The notes beneath the pieces are model-generated. The model had not been told where the DNA came from. It did not search any database and saw nothing but the letters and a program-made list of their open reading frames with translations. A DNA stretch of 9,599 nt from Planctomycetia bacterium (GTDB lineage Bacteria; Planctomycetota; UBA11346): assembly GCA_005801395.1 (NCBI GenBank), contig SYDV01000023.1, positions 1 through 9,599 on the forward strand, read 5' to 3'. The translations under genes were made by a program, and so were the position numbers. Shown here one piece after another: positions 1-8,186 of this stretch (position 1 is its first letter; every line of letters starts with the position of its first letter).

Positions 1-3000
1 GTGATTTGATATAAAAGATTACAACACGCATAATAACTGTAGGTGGTTTTCCACGTCGCATTACGCGGATCAGATTCGGTTAATTTCTTTTTCGTCAGGG
101 TATAGGTGTAAAAGATCGTCGCGGCATCAGTGCTACCACTCGCCTCGGTGACCGACGCTAATAAATTTCGTCCCGTGTAGGTATAACTGGTCGCATACAG
201 ATTTGCGCCATAGGAAAATAATCCGGTACTCACGTTACGAACAAAGCTTTTGGGTTTCAACACGCTGGTGCGATTACCCTGGGCATCGTAGCCATATTCC
301 GTTCGCTCAGCATTCGCAATAATCGTTGGAGGCACCGTCATCGCATTGGTCGCGGCTTTAATCACTGCTTTCATACGACCTTGTTCATCCCATTCCGTCT
401 TTTCAGTAATTCCACGAGCATCGGTGCGAGAGATTAATTGGCCTTCGACATCATAGGTCATTTCTTCGATGACGTAGCTTGGATTTGGCATAACGACACG
501 AGTAAGTCCGCTGAGGTAGGATTCCTTTGCCAATGCCGAATCGGGAACATTTAGTGCGCCTGGTATTAATTCACGCACGGACCGATAAGGTAAATCTCGT
601 AGATTATAAAGGAAATACGTCCGTCGCCCGTAGGCGTCTTGCTCATAACTGATCCGTTGATCATCGCCATAAATCCGACTCGTTATCAGCGTCACACCTG
701 CCCGTGGTACGCGCGTTTCGCTGATTTGACGTAATTGTGAATCGTAACCGTAGGTTGCCGTATCGCCATCACGGGTTTCACTCGCCACTAAGGATTTACC
801 AGGCACATAAGTCCAAGCCGAAGTGCCGACGACCACAGCGGCAGGACTGGCGATGCTCATACCGCTGCGTCGTCCAGTTGCATCATATGTCATCGTTTCC
901 ACATTCCCGTTACGATCACGGTGTGACATCAGTAAGTTTGCATCAATTCCAGCACCATACGTCCATTCTTCATAGGTCGCATCATGGTAGGTAATGCGCT
1001 GAATTCGATTGCGTAAGTCGTAGAGATAAGTTGCCATGCGATTTTCAGCATCGGTTGACGTTGCCAGACGCCCAACTGCATCATAAGTAAAACTGCGAAT
1101 GGCACGAACACCACTGGTAACATCTGGTGGTTCAATGACACTGATTAAGCGTTTGTAATTAATACTGGTAGTAATTTCTTCATAAACATAATCGGTAACT
1201 TTACCGTTTGCATCAGTGGCGGATAATAGTTGACCACGGCTATTATACGTCCAGCTCCAAGCCCCTTGGACGCTAGTACCCTTAGCCGCGATTTTACTAA
1301 TTACGTTGCCTTTGGCATCGTAGCCATATTCCGTGATTCGGCCAAGGCCGTCGCTATGTATCAACGGACTTTGATTGGCATTAAAGGTAGTTGATTCTTG
1401 GGCATAAATAACTCCCGCCCCAGAAAGAACCTGTTTACTCGTTGCGGAACCGGCTGTGTCACGGACGTATTTTGTTTTTGTTCCGGACGCACTCACTTCT
1501 TCGGCAATGCGATGTTCGGCATCGGAATCGTAAGAAGATGCCAATTTCCATCCATTTGCTGTGATTACATTACCTATGAACGAGAATGACGTGGCGCGTT
1601 CTTGTTTAGTTATTCTACCTAATTCATCAAATGATATATTCATTACGCTACCGCTATTGTCACCTCCACCCTCGTACACCATCAGCCCGCTAACAGCTTC
1701 TGAGTCAGTAGTACTGCTTATTTGATTACGGTAACTAATTTCACCGCTGCCGTTGATGACTTGCCAAATATGATTGGGACCTTGGTTAGTTGTTTGGGTG
1801 CCGTTAAACGTTGGGGTACGTCCGGTGGTTAAATATAAGGTTTTATTTCGGTGAATGTCTTCGGCACCGGCATCGTACATCTGCAATTTTTGATGTCGGC
1901 TAACTGCATCCCATGTCGTGGAGAAATTTGACAACGTGCCATCAGGATACGTAATGCGATTCACAGCCACCAGAGAATTAAGATTATAGGTATAGGTAAT
2001 AGTGCCCGTCGTTGGTGTGACCATGGTGTTGATCACCCATTGGCCCGCATGGCGTTGCCAGGTGAACGATACGAATTGCCCATAAGCATCCGTGATGTTA
2101 TTCACCTGCCATAAACGTTCACGATCGTATTGGAGGGTAGCTTCTGATGCCTGAGCATCTGCGGTGACATACGCCAGAGTGATACGATTGCCGTTGCGAT
2201 CTTCGATGGATTTTAGACGACCAAGAAGCGAATCATTTATTCCTGCGGTAGCGGAGAATAATTCAAAGGTATAAATGTTTTTTTGATGCGTCGTCATTTT
2301 TGCCGTGCGCATTAACGCTTCATCACTGGTCTTAATTCCAGACGCATCATGCGTGGTTAATCCGAAGACCGCCTTAAATCCGCCATCCGTATAATTGCCA
2401 TCGTTAAGTGTGTCGATAAATTCTATTGGTGCAGTCAATGATGGATCGAACATCCGCACGGTGTTAGTGGCTTGATCAAGGGTTAGTTGGATGTCAGTAG
2501 AAAGAAATACCCCTGGCCCAAACGAACCATGCCAACCCATATCAGCGTAGCGATGAATGCGGTCGAGCGACAGCGCTAATAAACTACCTTGTTCATCCAT
2601 TCCACCGCCACAGGGACCACAACCAGACCCCGATTTTGCCACCGCATAATCACGTGCGGTATGGAAATGACTGCGTTGGGTATTGTCGATGTAGCTGTTG
2701 CCTAAAGAACTAGCTGACTTTGGTGTACTACTACGTTGGCCCGATGCCGTAGATTTGGGGTCGCAACACGGCGTGATACATTGGGGTTTAGGTGGGAAAA
2801 TGGTTGGGGTGTCGAATTGGGCGGTGATGATGGCTCGGGCTTGCCCAAAGTTAAATCCCTCCGAATTAGAAGACTGCAATACTCCATTCAAAACCTGAAG
2901 AGGCAAAAATTGGCAGTACGACGGAGGACTAGACGGGAAGAAGTCTGATACATAGGTCCCTGATCCGCTTCCAGAAAGCGCGTTTACCTTATGATACAAA

Positions 3001-3803
3001 CCATCAACGGTCACCTCTCCATCATTATAAGGTGATGTCCCATATTGTCCTAATGACAAAAATATAGTAACTTGAGCGCCTTTCGCAGCGGAATTAATTG
3101 GCACTTTAAAACGGCATGATTGTACTGTAAAAGACTGGGTTTTCGATGTAAAGTCGATATTTCCACCCAAGCCATCGTACGGGGTATCATGAACCCAAGT
3201 GCTACTTGTTACAATAAAAGGCACTACGAACCCTTCACCATCAACAGATACCCAACCCGTATTATCATGTCGTTCAGGTGCATATAAATCGGGATTAATT
3301 GCATGGAGATCTGGATCAAATTCGTCATCGACTTTCTGCCAATACCTGCCAGCTCCAGGCCCAATTGATTGGGCTTCAAAATGCTGCATTTTCGGAAGCA
3401 CCCTCAAACAAAAACTTAATTTCGCGTATAAACTGTCTGACGATACAGGGAAAGAACTCAGGGTTGAACCTACCGTTGGAATAGAATCGTTGTTTGTTTT
3501 CCCTTCGAAGGCGTTGGCATTTATTAAAAAAAGACCTGCCGTACTAGATAACTGTCCAACAATTGTATCGCCTAATGCAGGTAAATTTTCATAATTTTCA
3601 TAGAAACCATCATTTGGGGTTTCTCCCGGGTTCAATAATGGCCAAGTTATACTGCCACCTAATGCGCTATATCGTGCAGAAATAGCACGCATAACCGCCT
3701 CAGTTCCTGGCACATACTGATCAGCCGCCGAGGCCACATTCAGCGTAAAAATGGCAAAGATACTGAGGAGGGCTGTGAAAAATCGATGATTTAATAATGT
3801 CAT
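1..3803 (-). CDS. RHS/YD-repeat exported protein, partial (C-terminus beyond the left edge)
   Basis: The frame is open from an ATG at 3803 to base 1: 1267 codons plus two bases, no stop, so the C-terminus is missing. Residues 1-27 form a Sec signal peptide (basic start, hydrophobic LLSIFAIFTL, cleavage near ASA-AD). Residues 28-330 are an N-terminal domain I do not recognise. Residues 335-400 are a Pro/Ser-rich, Cys-containing linker with C342, C346, C347 and a CGPC motif at 395-398 followed by GGG. RHS-like sequence starts near 405 and continues to the edge, with YD motifs such as FDELGRI, YGYDAKGN, FTYDAVGRL, MTYDATGRR, MTYDVEGQL and YGYDAQGN. RHS repeats of known families build large beta-barrel shells that can enclose a C-terminal toxin or effector; whether this one carries such a tip cannot be seen. 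It is coupled to the NHL gene upstream. Confidence is high for the family and low for the function. Confidence 0.93.
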   Translation of the reverse strand, partial: MTLLNHRFFTALLSIFAIFTLNVASAADQYVPGTEAVMRAISARYSALGGSITWPLLNPGETPNDGFYENYENLPALGDTIVGQLSSTAGLFLINANAFEGKTNNDSIPTVGSTLSSFPVSSDSLYAKLSFCLRVLPKMQHFEAQSIGPGAGRYWQKVDDEFDPDLHAINPDLYAPERHDNTGWVSVDGEGFVVPFIVTSSTWVHDTPYDGLGGNIDFTSKTQSFTVQSCRFKVPINSAAKGAQVTIFLSLGQYGTSPYNDGEVTVDGLYHKVNALSGSGSGTYVSDFFPSSPPSYCQFLPLQVLNGVLQSSNSEGFNFGQARAIITAQFDTPTIFPPKPQCITPCCDPKSTASGQRSSTPKSASSLGNSYIDNTQRSHFHTARDYAVAKSGSGCGPCGGGMDEQGSLLALSLDRIHRYADMGWHGSFGPGVFLSTDIQLTLDQATNTVRMFDPSLTAPIEFIDTLNDGNYTDGGFKAVFGLTTHDASGIKTSDEALMRTAKMTTHQKNIYTFELFSATAGINDSLLGRLKSIEDRNGNRITLAYVTADAQASEATLQYDRERLWQVNNITDAYGQFVSFTWQRHAGQWVINTMVTPTTGTITYTYNLNSLVAVNRITYPDGTLSNFSTTWDAVSRHQKLQMYDAGAEDIHRNKTLYLTTGRTPTFNGTQTTNQGPNHIWQVINGSGEISYRNQISSTTDSEAVSGLMVYEGGGDNSGSVMNISFDELGRITKQERATSFSFIGNVITANGWKLASSYDSDAEHRIAEEVSASGTKTKYVRDTAGSATSKQVLSGAGVIYAQESTTFNANQSPLIHSDGLGRITEYGYDAKGNVISKIAAKGTSVQGAWSWTYNSRGQLLSATDANGKVTDYVYEEITTSINYKRLISVIEPPDVTSGVRAIRSFTYDAVGRLATSTDAENRMATYLYDLRNRIQRITYHDATYEEWTYGAGIDANLLMSHRDRNGNVETMTYDATGRRSGMSIASPAAVVVGTSAWTYVPGKSLVASETRDGDTATYGYDSQLRQISETRVPRAGVTLITSRIYGDDQRISYEQDAYGRRTYFLYNLRDLPYRSVRELIPGALNVPDSALAKESYLSGLTRVVMPNPSYVIEEMTYDVEGQLISRTDARGITEKTEWDEQGRMKAVIKAATNAMTVPPTIIANAERTEYGYDAQGNRTSVLKPKSFVRNVSTGLFSYGANLYATSYTYTGRNLLASVTEASGSTDAATIFYTYTLTKKKLTESDPRNATWKTTYSYYACCNLLYQI

Positions 3804-3814
3804 AATTAACCTCA
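3804..3814 (-). promoter_or_regulatory. Coupled ribosome binding site of the RHS gene
   Basis: On the minus strand GAGG (3810-3813) lies six bases before the RHS ATG and shares bases with the TGA stop (3812-3814) of the preceding NHL gene. Ribosomes finishing the NHL gene would sit on the RHS start signal. This arrangement supports the ATG at 3803 and argues for one transcript with coupled translation. Confidence 0.7.
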
Positions 3815-6010
3815 AGGTGCCGCTGGTGTAGTTATGGTAAACTGGACAAACTGACTCGCCTTGGGCGATGCAGCACGCACGATACCAGTACCGCCACGCA
3901 TTAACGAAAAGGTGGTACGCGCTTCACCATTAACATCGCTCATTACCGTCAAACTGTTAACCAAAGTTGGCCCCAACCCACCATCCGTAAAAACGGTAAA
4001 GGTCACTGGCGCGGTAGGCGCACCCATGACGACCAAGGTCGTAGGTAAATAATCGGTGGCTTGAAAAAAACGCTGACCAAGGGGTTTCAAAACCGGGACC
4101 GTTGCCCCGGGCGTAGCCGTTTGCCACACCCGACCTGGATGCACATCAGCCAAATAGGCCGTTCGATAATTTATATCCGTGTCCCATAAATTATTGTCAA
4201 ATACTGGCGCTTGTACCAACGGCGTACCGTTCACCAACGCGGGCGACATAACGTTGGCTTGCGCCGTCGCAGTCAATGAACCATATGTAGCGGTAATGGT
4301 ATGCGGTCCCCCAACGATTAATGGCGCGGTGTAATCTCCGATCGTGGAAATGGTTCCGCCGCCAGCCACCACCGACCACGTCGGAAATAATTCGGTGATG
4401 GGTTTACCAAATTGATCCGTACCTGTGGCAGTGAGTTTAAACGTCTGCGTGCCAGCAACAGGAACCACCGTCGCCGCTGGTGTTATCGCAACCGAACCGG
4501 GCGTTTGCATAACCACCAAGGTGATGCCAGTCGTCAACGGCAAATTGGTTCCATCGCTGATCGTGACCGCCAAATGATAGGTACCAGCGCGAGTAAAATA
4601 TACCGTGGTGGCTTTGGCCGTGTTCGTGGCGTTGTCGCTCCACGTGACCGGATCTGGCACGGTTTCGACCGTCGACCACGTATAGATCACACTGGCTTCG
4701 CCATTGGTGTCGGCTCCTAACGTGGTCACGGCTGAATAAGTACTAAACAAAGGATTGGTAGTCACGGTTGGACGAGTTTTAATGACTGGCCCCATACTGG
4801 TGACGCGGATACGACGATTATTGGTATCGGCGATAAATATGGCGCCGAGGCTATCCAGCGCCATTTCCTGTGGTGCGCTGATTTTTGCCGCTGACGCAAG
4901 CGCGCCGTCACCGGAATAACCAGCGGTACCAGTGCCATAGACCGTTGAGATAATGCTGCCGGCAATTTTTCGCACGCGATGGTTGGCATAATCCGAGATT
5001 AAAATATTTCCGTTACTCAAGACCAATAAACGCCGAGGTGCCATCATTTTTGCTGCTGTGGCAGCTCCACCATCCCCAGAAAAGCCGCTGGTTGTCCCGG
5101 CAATGGTGGTCATCGTGGTTCCAGTGACTTGGCGAATGCGGCTATTGCCGGTGTCCGCAATCAGTACATTTCCAGCGGCCGTTATGGCCACGCCGTAGGG
5201 CGAACTTAATTGCGCTGAGGTCGCAAGGCCGCCATCACCACTTAATCCCGCCGTACCGGTTCCCGCCACGGTAGTAATAATGCCCGCGCTGACTTTACGA
5301 ATGCGATGGTTGTTGGTATCGGCAATAAAAATTTCACCCGTAGCGTTCACAACAATACCATTAGGGGCATTTAAACGCGCTGCGGTCGCGCTCGCACCGT
5401 CCCCGATATATCCCGACACACCTGAACCGGCCACGGTCGTAATCACTCCGGTACTCAGGGTTATGCAACGGATACGATGGCCACCACGTTCAGAAATATA
5501 CAGCAAGCCTGAATTCGTCAGGGCAAGACTAGCGGGAGAAAATAACGTCGCTGCTGCCGCTTGGCCACCATCCCCGGTCGACGAGCCCGTCCCAGTGCCA
5601 GCAATCGTTGTGATCATCCCCGTTGCTGCAGTTAATTTACGAATGCGATGATTACCCGTATCAGCGATGTAAACATTATGTTGCGCGTCAACCGCGACAC
5701 CCTCTGGGGCGGCCAACTTTCCCTCCATCGCAAATCCAGCATCACCGGAAAATCCAGACGTTCCGGTTCCCGCCACGGTGCCCATAAATACTTCACCGGC
5801 TGACAATGACGCGGAATTGGCAATCAATCCCGCCGCGATGAGCAACATCCAGACCAGTTTATTCACTCTTCCAGCGCCAATACCCGCGATGACGTCGGAC
5901 GTCGGACGTCGGACAAACCCAAAACGCAATTTTCGCATCATCATAACCCGCATCTCCATCTTGTTCACGAACACGCCGTTTGCACCAAGAGCAAATAATA
6001 ATTCGGCCAT
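3812..6010 (-). CDS. Exported NHL-repeat protein with PKD-like and Ig-like domains
   Basis: A 732-residue protein from the longest ATG start. A signal peptide lies at about 49-71 (NKLVWMLLIAAGLIANSASLSA), so the mature protein is outside the cytoplasm. Residues 77-405 hold six NHL-type units of about 55 residues, each with a TVAGTG...SGDGG loop and an IADTGNHRIRK-type strand; six units suit a closed beta-propeller. Residues 415-500 are PKD-like (TYTWS-type strand, FTRAGTYHLAVTISDG). Residues 505-587 resemble a Big-type Ig domain (TQTFKLTATGTDQFGKP, GGGTIS). The tail at 655-732 looks like another Ig-like domain with a GEARTTFSL strand. NHL propellers usually bind protein, glycan or other ligands; the ligand here is unknown. 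It is the first gene of a pair with the RHS gene. The start is uncertain: 6010 has AGG six bases upstream, but ATGs near 5944 (after GGAG) or GTG at 5866 would fit the signal peptide better. Confidence 0.9.
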   Translation of the reverse strand: MAELLFALGANGVFVNKMEMRVMMMRKLRFGFVRRPTSDVIAGIGAGRVNKLVWMLLIAAGLIANSASLSAGEVFMGTVAGTGTSGFSGDAGFAMEGKLAAPEGVAVDAQHNVYIADTGNHRIRKLTAATGMITTIAGTGTGSSTGDGGQAAAATLFSPASLALTNSGLLYISERGGHRIRCITLSTGVITTVAGSGVSGYIGDGASATAARLNAPNGIVVNATGEIFIADTNNHRIRKVSAGIITTVAGTGTAGLSGDGGLATSAQLSSPYGVAITAAGNVLIADTGNSRIRQVTGTTMTTIAGTTSGFSGDGGAATAAKMMAPRRLLVLSNGNILISDYANHRVRKIAGSIISTVYGTGTAGYSGDGALASAAKISAPQEMALDSLGAIFIADTNNRRIRVTSMGPVIKTRPTVTTNPLFSTYSAVTTLGADTNGEASVIYTWSTVETVPDPVTWSDNATNTAKATTVYFTRAGTYHLAVTISDGTNLPLTTGITLVVMQTPGSVAITPAATVVPVAGTQTFKLTATGTDQFGKPITELFPTWSVVAGGGTISTIGDYTAPLIVGGPHTITATYGSLTATAQANVMSPALVNGTPLVQAPVFDNNLWDTDINYRTAYLADVHPGRVWQTATPGATVPVLKPLGQRFFQATDYLPTTLVVMGAPTAPVTFTVFTDGGLGPTLVNSLTVMSDVNGEARTTFSLMRGGTGIVRAASPKASQFVQFTITTPAAP
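4990..5785 (-). repeat. NHL-unit coding repeats, imperfect tandem DNA repeats
   Basis: Units 1-5 and part of unit 6 of the NHL gene recur about every 165 bases with variable DNA identity. The 17-base string CCGGTTCCCGCCACGGT occurs identically at 5256-5272 and 5763-5779, and AATGCGATGGTT-like strings recur at the conserved NHRIRK positions. Most divergence is at synonymous or loop positions, as expected of an old internal duplication with local exchange. Confidence 0.7.
5891..5914. repeat. Heptamer microsatellite, three copies of GTCGGAC
   Basis: Three perfect head-to-tail copies of GTCGGAC occupy 5894-5914, preceded by GAC at 5891-5893. In the NHL reading frame the tract encodes the R-R-P-T-S-D-V part of the N-terminal extension. 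Seven bases is not a multiple of three, so gain or loss of one unit would shift any frame that starts upstream. Confidence 0.85.
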
Positions 6011-6148: not shown

Positions 6149-7207
6149 TCAAGAGCGGGCCGCCTGTGCAGCCACCGCCGCGCCAAGAGCAAAACAAGTT
6201 CCCGTAACGCGGAGCGCCGACGCGGCGGCATCGTCGACGGGCATGCCTTTACCAATAATCCATAAATTACGCGGACCGTGGTTGAGCTGGACTGCTGATC
6301 GCGGAATGCCGTGTTGATTTTGTGCTGGCCACAACCATGTGGTGCCGTGAGCTTGGTGGTGTTCTTGTGGCCAAGCGGCCCAACATAATCCACGTTCTGT
6401 TTGGGCGAATAACGTTGCTACGTCCAATTGCGCTGCGGGACGACCTTCATCGCGGGCGGCGATTGCAATAGCCTGTGTCCATATTTGACCGCCGAGTGCC
6501 GTTGCAATGTCATGCGAGATATGTGCCGCCTGATCAAGCGTGGTGGTGGGCGGCACATCGATTGATAATTGCCAACGGTCCTCACCGATAGGAGATAACG
6601 CCAAGGCAGCATCGCTATTCAGGACTTGCTGCGCGAGGTGCAAGGCTCGCACACGTGCGATTTTATTCAAACCTACATTTGGTAGCTGTAAAATACTGCG
6701 ATAGGCAGGCCATTGCGTGGCCTCGGCGATGGGTAATCCCAATAACCGGGCGCTGATGCCTGCGCCACTTGCGTCAATCACGCCACGTACCGGCACCGTT
6801 CCGTGTGTCGTACTGGTGACACTAATGACCTGTCCTTGATCCGACGTCATCGCCGTTACCCGCGTTTGATAATGAACCGCGACTGACATGTGTGCTAATC
6901 GTTGTTGTAGGCCAGTCATTAAAGTAAGCGCTGTGGTTGGCCACAACCACACCCGACCATGGCGATACGCTGGCCCAGTCGTCACAAATGGTAGCCAAGC
7001 GCTGACGAATTCGGGCTCTAATAAAATAGGCGAAACAGCATCAATGGGGGCCAAACCACAAATGGTGCGATGTTCGCCGCGTGCTGCCACTCCGCCAACG
7101 GCGTTACTCGCTTCATATAAAACGACGGGCACGCCCTGTTGCGCGAGCGCAACGGCTGCGGCGCAACCGGCAACTCCGCCACCGATGACCAAGATCGGGT
7201 GCGTCAT
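6149..7207 (-). CDS. FAD-dependent oxidoreductase
   Basis: A 352-residue protein with a Rossmann FAD-binding start: beta strand ILVIGGG, the GxGxxG motif at G9, G11 and G14, and the ribose-binding acidic residue E32 in VVLYEAS, then a GG pair at 38-39. VIDASGAG at 143-150 is the second dinucleotide motif (ATG-type). The C-terminal block at 315-346 (NLWIIGKGMPVDDAAASALRVTGTCFALG, given here only in part as GKGMPVDD and LRVTGTCFALG) matches the FAD-closing segment of the FAD_oxidored family. There is no signal peptide, so it is cytoplasmic. Substrate is unknown. The ACP gene ends eight bases before this ATG with no strong Shine-Dalgarno between, so translation is probably coupled and a carrier-bound acyl or polyene chain is a reasonable substrate guess. 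It is somewhat short for the family. Family confidence is high, role low. Confidence 0.88.
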   Translation of the reverse strand: MTHPILVIGGGVAGCAAAVALAQQGVPVVLYEASNAVGGVAARGEHRTICGLAPIDAVSPILLEPEFVSAWLPFVTTGPAYRHGRVWLWPTTALTLMTGLQQRLAHMSVAVHYQTRVTAMTSDQGQVISVTSTTHGTVPVRGVIDASGAGISARLLGLPIAEATQWPAYRSILQLPNVGLNKIARVRALHLAQQVLNSDAALALSPIGEDRWQLSIDVPPTTTLDQAAHISHDIATALGGQIWTQAIAIAARDEGRPAAQLDVATLFAQTERGLCWAAWPQEHHQAHGTTWLWPAQNQHGIPRSAVQLNHGPRNLWIIGKGMPVDDAAASALRVTGTCFALGAAVAAQAARS

Positions 7208-7215
7208 GGATATTA

Positions 7216-7464
7216 TTAACCGCTGACGGCCTGGACCACACCAGCCGCTAAGGTTTTGGAACTTTCCAATGCCTCATCTGGTAACTCTAAACTGGTGCTT
7301 AATTGTAATTCCCGTTCAATATCCAACAGCACACGCATCAATCCGTGGCTATCTAGCCCTAGGCCATCCAATGATAAATCCGACTTCGCTCGCACTTGTT
7401 CAGCACTGAGTTTCAATTGTCGCCCTAAGGCCGCGTAGACAGTCGCCACGATTTGATCGCTCAT
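7216..7464 (-). CDS. Acyl carrier protein
   Basis: An 82-residue protein with the size and helical pattern of a phosphopantetheine carrier. The expected attachment serine is S39 in GLGLDSHGLMR; histidine follows where leucine is usual (DSL). Helix II continues as LMRVLLDIEREL, and the acidic LPDEALESSKTLAAGVV tail matches the family. An ATG at 7464 with GGAG five bases upstream is the best start; the frame stays open upstream only to a TTG near 7578 that overlaps the divergent lipoprotein gene, which I reject. It is the first gene of a pair with the FAD-dependent oxidoreductase and is transcribed away from the lipoprotein gene. It would need a phosphopantetheinyl transferase and an acyl-loading enzyme from elsewhere. 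It differs from housekeeping fatty-acid ACP in sequence and setting, so it is probably a specialised carrier. Confidence 0.87.
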   Translation of the reverse strand: MSDQIVATVYAALGRQLKLSAEQVRAKSDLSLDGLGLDSHGLMRVLLDIERELQLSTSLELPDEALESSKTLAAGVVQAVSG

Positions 7465-7562
7465 TCGTTCTCCGGTGGGCGGCAGCCTAGGTCGAATGAG
7501 TCCGTCGTCATCCACCCATCTGGCGACTGCTTTGAACAGATCCAAGGATTGGCAGCGCCATA

Positions 7563-8186
7563 ATGCGGCACATAACAAGCGCCGTGCGACTAACCCTGTT
7601 TTTTATCATGACGCTGATGGTCGCTGGCTGCGGCGTTCGAGTTCCGGTAGTTCCGGAAAGTGCGCGCATGCAAACGCCACGCGCAGCGCCAACGATCAAA
7701 TGGATCGGCAAGGGACGATTGGAAGTGGTGGCCCCTGGTAAACGCATGAGTGGTTCGGCCATCGTTCGCGGCCTAGGCGATGGATCCGTGCGTGCAGCAT
7801 TTATTAGTGACGAAGGTTTATTGTTGGCAGATGTCAGTGCCCGCGACGGTGAATACACCGTGAATAAATCCATTACTGATATGGAACGGGCGTTGCCACA
7901 TTTGGGACGATTAGTGGCCCACGCCTACGGCCATATTACCGAGAGTGAGCGCCAGTGGAACGGAGGACACTTACTCGGAAAACACCTAGATACCGTGCGT
8001 TGGTATGGTGGCGATCCAATTTTATTACGCGCTGTGACGGGCGATGGATTGGACCTCTTAATTGAAGATTATCGCTGGCTGGGCATGGAGTTAGTGCCAT
8101 ACGAAGCCCGTGCCGAAGGGCCATTTGGCATCACCATTCGTTTACGCTTACAAAGTGCGACGGCCAGTAACACCGCACCAAAATGA
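7563..8186 (+). CDS. LolA/LolB-like outer-membrane lipoprotein
   Basis: A 207-residue protein whose first 22 residues are a lipoprotein signal peptide (hydrophobic LTLFFIMTLMV, lipobox V-A-G-C with C23). The residue after C23 is glycine, not aspartate, which favours sorting to the outer membrane. Residues 45-195 have the alternating strand pattern of the LolA/LolB lipid-binding fold: IKWIGKGRLEVV, SGSAIVRG, VRAAFISDEGLLLADVS, a helical NKSITDMERALPHLGRLV, and a closing FGITIRLRL strand. Related folds (LolB, DUF3261, DUF4292) are known to bind or deliver lipids or acyl chains. It diverges from the ACP-FAD pair across a 98-base gap, so a shared role is plausible: handling a product built on the carrier. 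No good Shine-Dalgarno precedes 7563, but the next ATG at 7608 would shorten the signal peptide too far. Confidence 0.72.
   Translation: MRHITSAVRLTLFFIMTLMVAGCGVRVPVVPESARMQTPRAAPTIKWIGKGRLEVVAPGKRMSGSAIVRGLGDGSVRAAFISDEGLLLADVSARDGEYTVNKSITDMERALPHLGRLVAHAYGHITESERQWNGGHLLGKHLDTVRWYGGDPILLRAVTGDGLDLLIEDYRWLGMELVPYEARAEGPFGITIRLRLQSATASNTAPK

Follow-up and report, generated by a model that had tools for sequence, protein, structure and literature searches.

What links an NHL-propeller protein to the RHS-repeat protein encoded directly downstream of it, and which part of the first protein does that link involve? The question arises from two minus-strand genes in a 9,599-nucleotide stretch of contig SYDV01000023.1 from a Planctomycetia bacterium, which was analysed whole and is called the window here. 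The upstream (partner) gene, taken from the open reading frame (ORF) list and Pfam, is a frame of 732 amino acids (6010..3812) that probably begins at the ATG at 5944 and not at 6010, as its relative P0003 begins there, and it is followed by an RHS gene (1..3803; ORF and Pfam) of which 1267 amino acids are visible before the frame runs open at the window edge. A preliminary description of this DNA had reported the adjacency, and it is real: the TGA stop of the first gene (3814-3812), a minus-strand GAGG (Shine-Dalgarno) that overlaps it (3813-3810) and the ATG of the second (3803-3801) form a coupling junction (3801..3814) with a gap of 8 bases between stop and start, while Pfam finds six NHL stretches (expectation value E=1.3e-39; TEN_NHL, E=2.6e-34) in the partner and nine RHS_repeat stretches (E=4e-34) in the RHS frame. 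We find that what accompanies RHS genes among relatives is not the propeller; it is a separate conserved domain at the partner's C-terminus (residues 600-732; 3815..4213, minus strand), which the preliminary description overlooked. The pair is best read as a split, two-gene version of a bacterial teneurin-like surface toxin, a polymorphic-toxin system in which the upstream C-terminal domain probably docks the RHS shell in trans and the N-terminal half would hold that shell.

The partner protein runs from an N-terminal hydrophobic signal through a six-bladed NHL propeller of the teneurin type (TEN_NHL; residues ~76-405, 4796..5785, minus strand, placed by Pfam and PDB match) and an Ig/PKD-like region (residues ~412-599; 4214..4777, minus strand, placed by alignments only) to the C-terminal domain, located by profile and model, whose docking role is predicted. 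The closest solved chain to its NHL part is a bacterial teneurin-like protein (TLP; 9ifo/9pt5, E about 2e-78), the next family following at E about 4e-30. The preliminary description had it as an NHL protein with PKD/Ig domains; Pfam recovers the six blades but names no PKD or Ig domain, residues ~408-590 only aligning with PKD/Ig-annotated proteins. That description further named the NHL propeller and the RHS shell as the pair, a view that did not survive comparison with relatives. An NHL motif that recovers three of the six window blades was counted zero times in all 32 domain-bearing loci outside the window, and Pfam names no NHL in the eight long partners scanned. Conversely, among NHL loci of the genome_contigs set (588 stretches fitted the pattern, 196 passed tblastn and the best 80 were kept, some on short contigs), the partner domain was found in none of the 80 nearest, within the stretches fetched. 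The NHL-RHS combination as a conserved pair was therefore rejected, the RHS profile matching only one of these 80 loci (L039). That locus holds a Burkholderiales frame of 2100 amino acids (7715-14014) in which NHL and YD repeats are fused in one chain, in the fashion of teneurin-like proteins. Another candidate, L013, was likewise set aside: its five weak YD-like regular-expression matches lie on the opposite strand and were not confirmed by the RHS profile. Because domain-bearing RHS loci without NHL and NHL loci without RHS were both found, NHL is not the conserved part; as judged from sequence, the propeller is one among several exchangeable N-terminal modules, and the pairing with RHS belongs to the C-terminal domain, which is the better candidate than the arm for the predicted shell contact. 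The arm itself may still be the adhesin, cap or receptor-binding part that the preliminary description proposed.

Relatives were reached from both ends of the pair. From the RHS head, two proteins (P0001, P0002) scored E<=0.001 among 7991 candidates limited by length and shared words; peptide-pattern scans (A1) for RHS returned nothing from the genome_contigs and viral_contigs sets, and a whole-genome profile search succeeded. Across 288 genomes from the phylum of an Akkermansiaceae record, the RHS profile gave one strong match (G240) and four weaker ones at E<=1e-15, and the order of G240 (6 genomes) held strong RHS relatives in two further genomes. These three genomes contain four such RHS genes (L102-L105), each preceded by a gene of 257-276 residues that lacks NHL and aligns, over its final ~130 residues, with the end of the window NHL protein. 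From the other side, 35 relatives were found for the C-terminal half of the NHL protein, and five of them (P0003-P0006, P0010) share the motif YRTAYLA..PGRVWQTA near their end. A profile of the C-terminal domain (A3) matched strongly in 14 of 294 Planctomycetota genomes, with partial matches only in five more, and in 11 of the 23 genomes of the class of G664 (here equal to its order). Strong matches in Verrucomicrobiota came from three of 387 genomes (G240, G294 and G227, with one partial match besides; three of 168 in the class of G240), G240 and G294 having already been found via their RHS. None appeared in 129 genomes from the phylum of an Acidobacteria record, 150 from that of a Burkholderiales record or 18 of a mixed set; recovery of its targets by the same profile in the G664-class and G240-class searches served as positive control. 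These five sets, mostly draft genomes with phylum labels taken from the centre records (L053 Akkermansiaceae, L010 Planctomycetales), define the scope of the domain searches, and we make no claim that the domain is confined to planctomycetes and verrucomicrobia. The pre-shell region of the window RHS protein is nearest to two Planctomycetota genes, L153 (38%) and L155 (37%). The domain can serve as a marker for finding further copies of the pair.

From the domain to RHS, co-occurrence is complete for the strong planctomycete matches. Run context-blind on the 294 Planctomycetota genomes, A3 returned 33 rows. Of these, 27 reach E<=4.7e-10 and come from 14 genomes, and six are weaker and partial; 26 of the 27 strong matches span the domain, and the remaining one (G672:C74) covers positions 39-132 with an internal stop. 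In all 27 strong loci a same-strand RHS frame follows directly, and G706 (L197), from the class search, adds a 28th, giving domain then RHS gene in 28 of 28. Contig ends cut the RHS frame in nine of the 27, leaving just 332 and 148 residues in L148 and L152, and the L144 frame lacks a start codon close to the junction. By contrast, none of the six loci with a partial domain match (L109, L124-L128) has RHS within 1.5 kb; a seventh partial place (G451:C59) is without a locus. In 30 of 32 pairs the RHS start codon falls between -20 and +50 bases from the partner stop, by-eye readings in which the choice of start is a judgement (exceptions L134, at +76, and L144), and in all 32, the window included, between 1 and 24 residues separate the end of the domain from the partner C-terminus. 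Such close-set pairs support a two-gene unit that is conserved and tightly spaced, and a common place of action, as proposed in the preliminary description, is likely. One genome, G672, carries six copies of the pair (L140, L145, L148, L150, L153, L157), of which L157, with a stop inside its domain match, looks like a remnant.

Upstream of the domain the partners differ widely: this segment may be a membrane anchor or lipobox with a linker, an array of immunoglobulin-like (Ig) or fibronectin type III (Fn3) domains, PKD/cadherin, PA14/Calx-beta or, in the window, NHL. Short partners (n=43, some of them near-duplicates) include 30 with an anchor-like helix, six with a lipobox and seven ambiguous cases. 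Lipase-specific foldases consist of an N-terminal helix, an Ala/Pro-rich linker and a client-binding C-terminal domain. The main rival explanation accordingly makes the upstream protein a periplasmic chaperone or foldase, anchored in the membrane and dedicated to its RHS shell, with long forms that gained their arms later; it draws on the 30 short partners, which run from one anchor-like helix through a linker to the C-terminal domain, and on the fact that each partner adjoins one RHS gene at the loci examined. We regard it as unlikely, because nine of 32 partners exceed 400 amino acids, reaching 2819, and of these nine, seven have arrays of Ig, cadherin, PKD, PA14 or similar domains and one has NHL, features that are unusual for a foldase. 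Partner size also co-varies with the RHS head, which argues in the same direction: heads measure 159-537 amino acids beside the nine long partners and 57-155 beside the 23 shorter ones, with no overlap (the 400-amino-acid cut was chosen by us, and the L157 head position comes from a poor match), and the two lengths correlate across the 32 pairs (Spearman 0.57, p=6e-4, the p-value being indicative only as the loci are related).

The ~133 C-terminal residues of the window partner have no Pfam or NCBIfam match; NCBIfam likewise gave none for six of seven partners and one match below cut-off for P0051, and PADLOC returned no match for four proteins. The structure model of the domain (predicted local distance difference test, pLDDT, 93.6) places a short helical cap (~4195-4124, minus strand) before an Ig-like sandwich of the intimin/invasin type (~4108-3815, minus strand), with phage, beta-galactosidase and other Ig domains tying with intimin and invasin in the fold lists; the comparison covered model residues 40-137 only and barely tested the cap. 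This modelled build, an Ig-type sandwich to which a helical cap is added, would also suit a domain that acts in trans as a plug or cap and closes the RHS shell at its N-terminal mouth, the role of the FN-plug in teneurins as described in the available portion of PMC6425310. The heads of short systems, just 57-155 amino acids before the pre-shell motif, would leave scant room for a built-in plug; those of long systems, however, are large enough for one of their own, and we rate the plug as improbable. No teneurin chain stands among the matches listed for the domain in the PDB sequence search and fold lists, which speaks neither for nor against a plug. That the two proteins are merely expressed together and exported to one location, with no contact between them, although operon-like coupling by itself would hold their genes together, seems very improbable when the last upstream domain is conserved while the remainder changes and long partners accompany long RHS heads.

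The RHS protein supplies the presumed toxin side of the pair. All on the minus strand, it comprises an N-terminal hydrophobic signal (residues 1-26; 3726..3803), called by eye as was that of the partner, a head of ~340 residues (residues ~27-367; 2703..3725, from alignment to P0001), a pre-shell motif, H.H...DY...GC.PCG...R.HRY.D...SFGPG (residues ~368-432; 2508..2702, from alignment), and a YD/RHS repeat shell (residues ~433-1267; 3..2507, from Pfam and PDB match) that extends outside the window. Four pre-shell positions, H17, C31, C34 and G35 (a His plus CxxCG), are invariant in all 19 rows of profile A4 and make up a candidate metal or disulfide site. A4 holds the pre-shell regions of 19 of the 32 pairs, the others being without the CxxCG pattern used for cutting, too short or, for L147 and L157, omitted by choice; A5 comprises 30 locus or window rows plus four typed pieces, with L148, L156 and L157 omitted. 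Pfam searches of the RHS C-termini of ten relatives named Ntox47, PLA2-like, PT-HINT and deaminase domains in four and were uninformative for six, and NCBIfam Rhs_assc_core was found in nine of ten RHS ends scanned for it, in seven above the curated cut-off. By domain content the RHS genes of these relatives are polymorphic toxins, and the window gene follows as one by relationship only, its toxin end lying outside the window. A candidate immunity gene at L103 is a frame of 212 amino acids (14490-15128) that carries a signal at its N-terminus and shares bases with the final part of the RHS gene. To the eye, the L103 and L105 RHS frames each seem to have a PA14-like stretch inserted within the shell.

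The docking of an RHS shell by the upstream C-terminal domain, the reading that we prefer, has as its observed basis co-conservation, gene order, close spacing, modularity, the co-variation of partner and head size, and toxin or pretoxin domains in some relatives. Under it, both proteins would likely be exported by Sec via their N-terminal hydrophobic signals, and the C-terminal domain would bind the shell in trans, making contact through the variable RHS head or the pre-shell region. In short partners the membrane helix or lipobox with its linker would hold the complex to the membrane, whereas in long partners an adhesive arm (Ig, Fn3, PKD/cadherin, PA14), represented in the window by the NHL propeller and Ig-like domains, would present the shell, and use against neighbouring cells may be envisaged.

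Several points weigh against docking. Distances among partner, pre-shell and shell sequences are all correlated (Mantel r 0.46 for partner-preshell, 0.54 for partner-shell and 0.66 for preshell-shell; 30 of 32 pairs, L144 and L152 dropped), each beyond all 2000 shuffles, and they do not single out the pre-shell region as an interface because partner and shell are inherited together. The reciprocal count, in which A4 was run on the same 294 genomes and the domain stood directly upstream of 25 of 28 distinct RHS genes (E<=1e-30), supports the pairing but is biased in its favour because the A4 genes were all drawn from pairs. Of the other three, L190 lies at a contig start, and L188 and L189 directly follow another large ORF without a domain match to the profile; by eye, the L189 upstream protein may end in a degenerate form. 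The E cut-offs were set after the rows were seen. At L156 (G227:C58), a partner and an RHS-like N-terminus appear by eye to be adjacent but divergent at a contig end, an orientation that sets this locus apart from the rest of the pairs examined. An AlphaFold model of RHS residues 1-880, built from 3 sequences, reached a pLDDT of 30.3, and the RHS frame exits the window at base 1, so that its C-terminal end and any toxin lie outside. Finally, the membrane-anchored short forms fit a chaperone equally well as a tether.

Divergence around the junction bears on how such pairs might stay matched. Among near relatives of the window (P0003, P0004, P0005), the propeller is 85-100% identical and the last ~90 residues only 50-78%. 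Against P0001, the relative with the most similar shell, RHS head residues 1-360 are 18-67% identical, residues 401-600 are 85-100% and those beyond 75-80%, so that the head diverges even there. Since both the head and the partner C-terminus are variable, the variable blocks neighbour each other across the gene junction, which suggests joint exchange of junction blocks (the compared proteins coming from different contigs), and near-identical propellers with divergent ends suggest recombination or gene conversion between cassettes. A wider proposal, which we put forward tentatively and consider possible rather than probable, is that planctomycetes and some verrucomicrobia possess two-chain surface RHS toxins made of a shell and an exchangeable arm, in which a dedicated docking domain is specific for the head of its own shell and the junction block (the last ~90 residues of the arm and the first ~360 of the shell) changes as one piece while the flanks on either side are homogenised, so that cognate pairs stay matched.

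Among known systems, bacterial TLPs come closest, with a teneurin-type NHL and YD shell, adhesion modules that vary at the N-terminus, anchoring as lipoproteins or to the wall, and polymorphic C-terminal toxins. The available text of PMC13018210 and PMC6425310 describes a single chain that joins modules for anchoring or adhesion to NHL, a YD shell and a polymorphic toxin; that of the former reports TLPs from six phyla, Planctomycetota and Verrucomicrobiota not included, and that of the latter, a 2019 review, mentions Verrucomicrobia for similar proteins. The window has a TLP-like propeller, by TEN_NHL and by its best PDB match, but a stop separates NHL from YD repeats. TLPs unite FN-plug, NHL and YD shell in one chain; here arm and shell occupy two genes, NHL is optional and the C-terminal domain is constant. 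For an FN-plug, Pfam gives no match in either window protein, which by itself sets the window neither with TLPs nor apart from them. As the two parts do not form one chain, the window is not classed as a TLP, though a similar way of working is possible.

Neisseria MafA/MafB resemble the pair in that a polymorphic toxin secreted by way of a signal peptide often has the gene of a surface adhesin lipoprotein immediately in front of its own. However, in the accessible part of PMC4287609, maf genes are specific to Neisseria and MafB is without repeats or an RHS shell, whereas the downstream protein of the window is an RHS repeat protein; the systems are set apart here by description, with no sequence comparison. 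In TcB/TcC, too, two proteins form one toxin-shell unit, with a beta-propeller in the TcdB/TcaC type (PMC3482391 and PMC6425310, as far as available), but both subunits build the shell according to the latter, while Pfam finds no RHS repeats in the window partner, and they are likewise absent from the partners of the 32 other loci. Effectors of the type VI secretion system (T6SS) share RHS shell sequence similarity (PDB 8uy4 Tse15, 7q97 and 8cp6 Tse5). Unlike them, the window RHS protein bears an N-terminal hydrophobic signal and has no PAAR domain, RHS_repeat being its only Pfam match at E<=10. Eag-type chaperones are a class associated with T6SS Rhs effectors, and Pfam found no match to them in the window upstream gene, P0040 or P0041. 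Domain content agrees with the preliminary description that the layout is unlike that of Tc toxins and T6SS Rhs proteins. A giant single protein with RHS and adhesin domains from the Planctomycetes-Verrucomicrobia-Chlamydiae (PVC) group, reported in the available part of PMC12057145, has a different architecture.

The papers listed in searches of an open-access library, which leaves most subscription papers outside, included no description of this gene pair and no account of how RHS toxins are displayed in planctomycetes or some verrucomicrobia, where the present loci place an RHS toxin system. If docking is true, these would be two-chain teneurin-like toxins whose anchoring or adhesive half can evolve without altering the shell, an arrangement that would bear on how animal teneurins joined a toxin shell with adhesion domains.

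Beyond the pair, a cluster of the aryl-polyene or flexirubin type may have its edge at window positions 6149-8186, where an FAD-dependent oxidoreductase and an acyl-carrier-like protein are grouped with a LolB2 (flexirubin) match that is weak and below cut-off.
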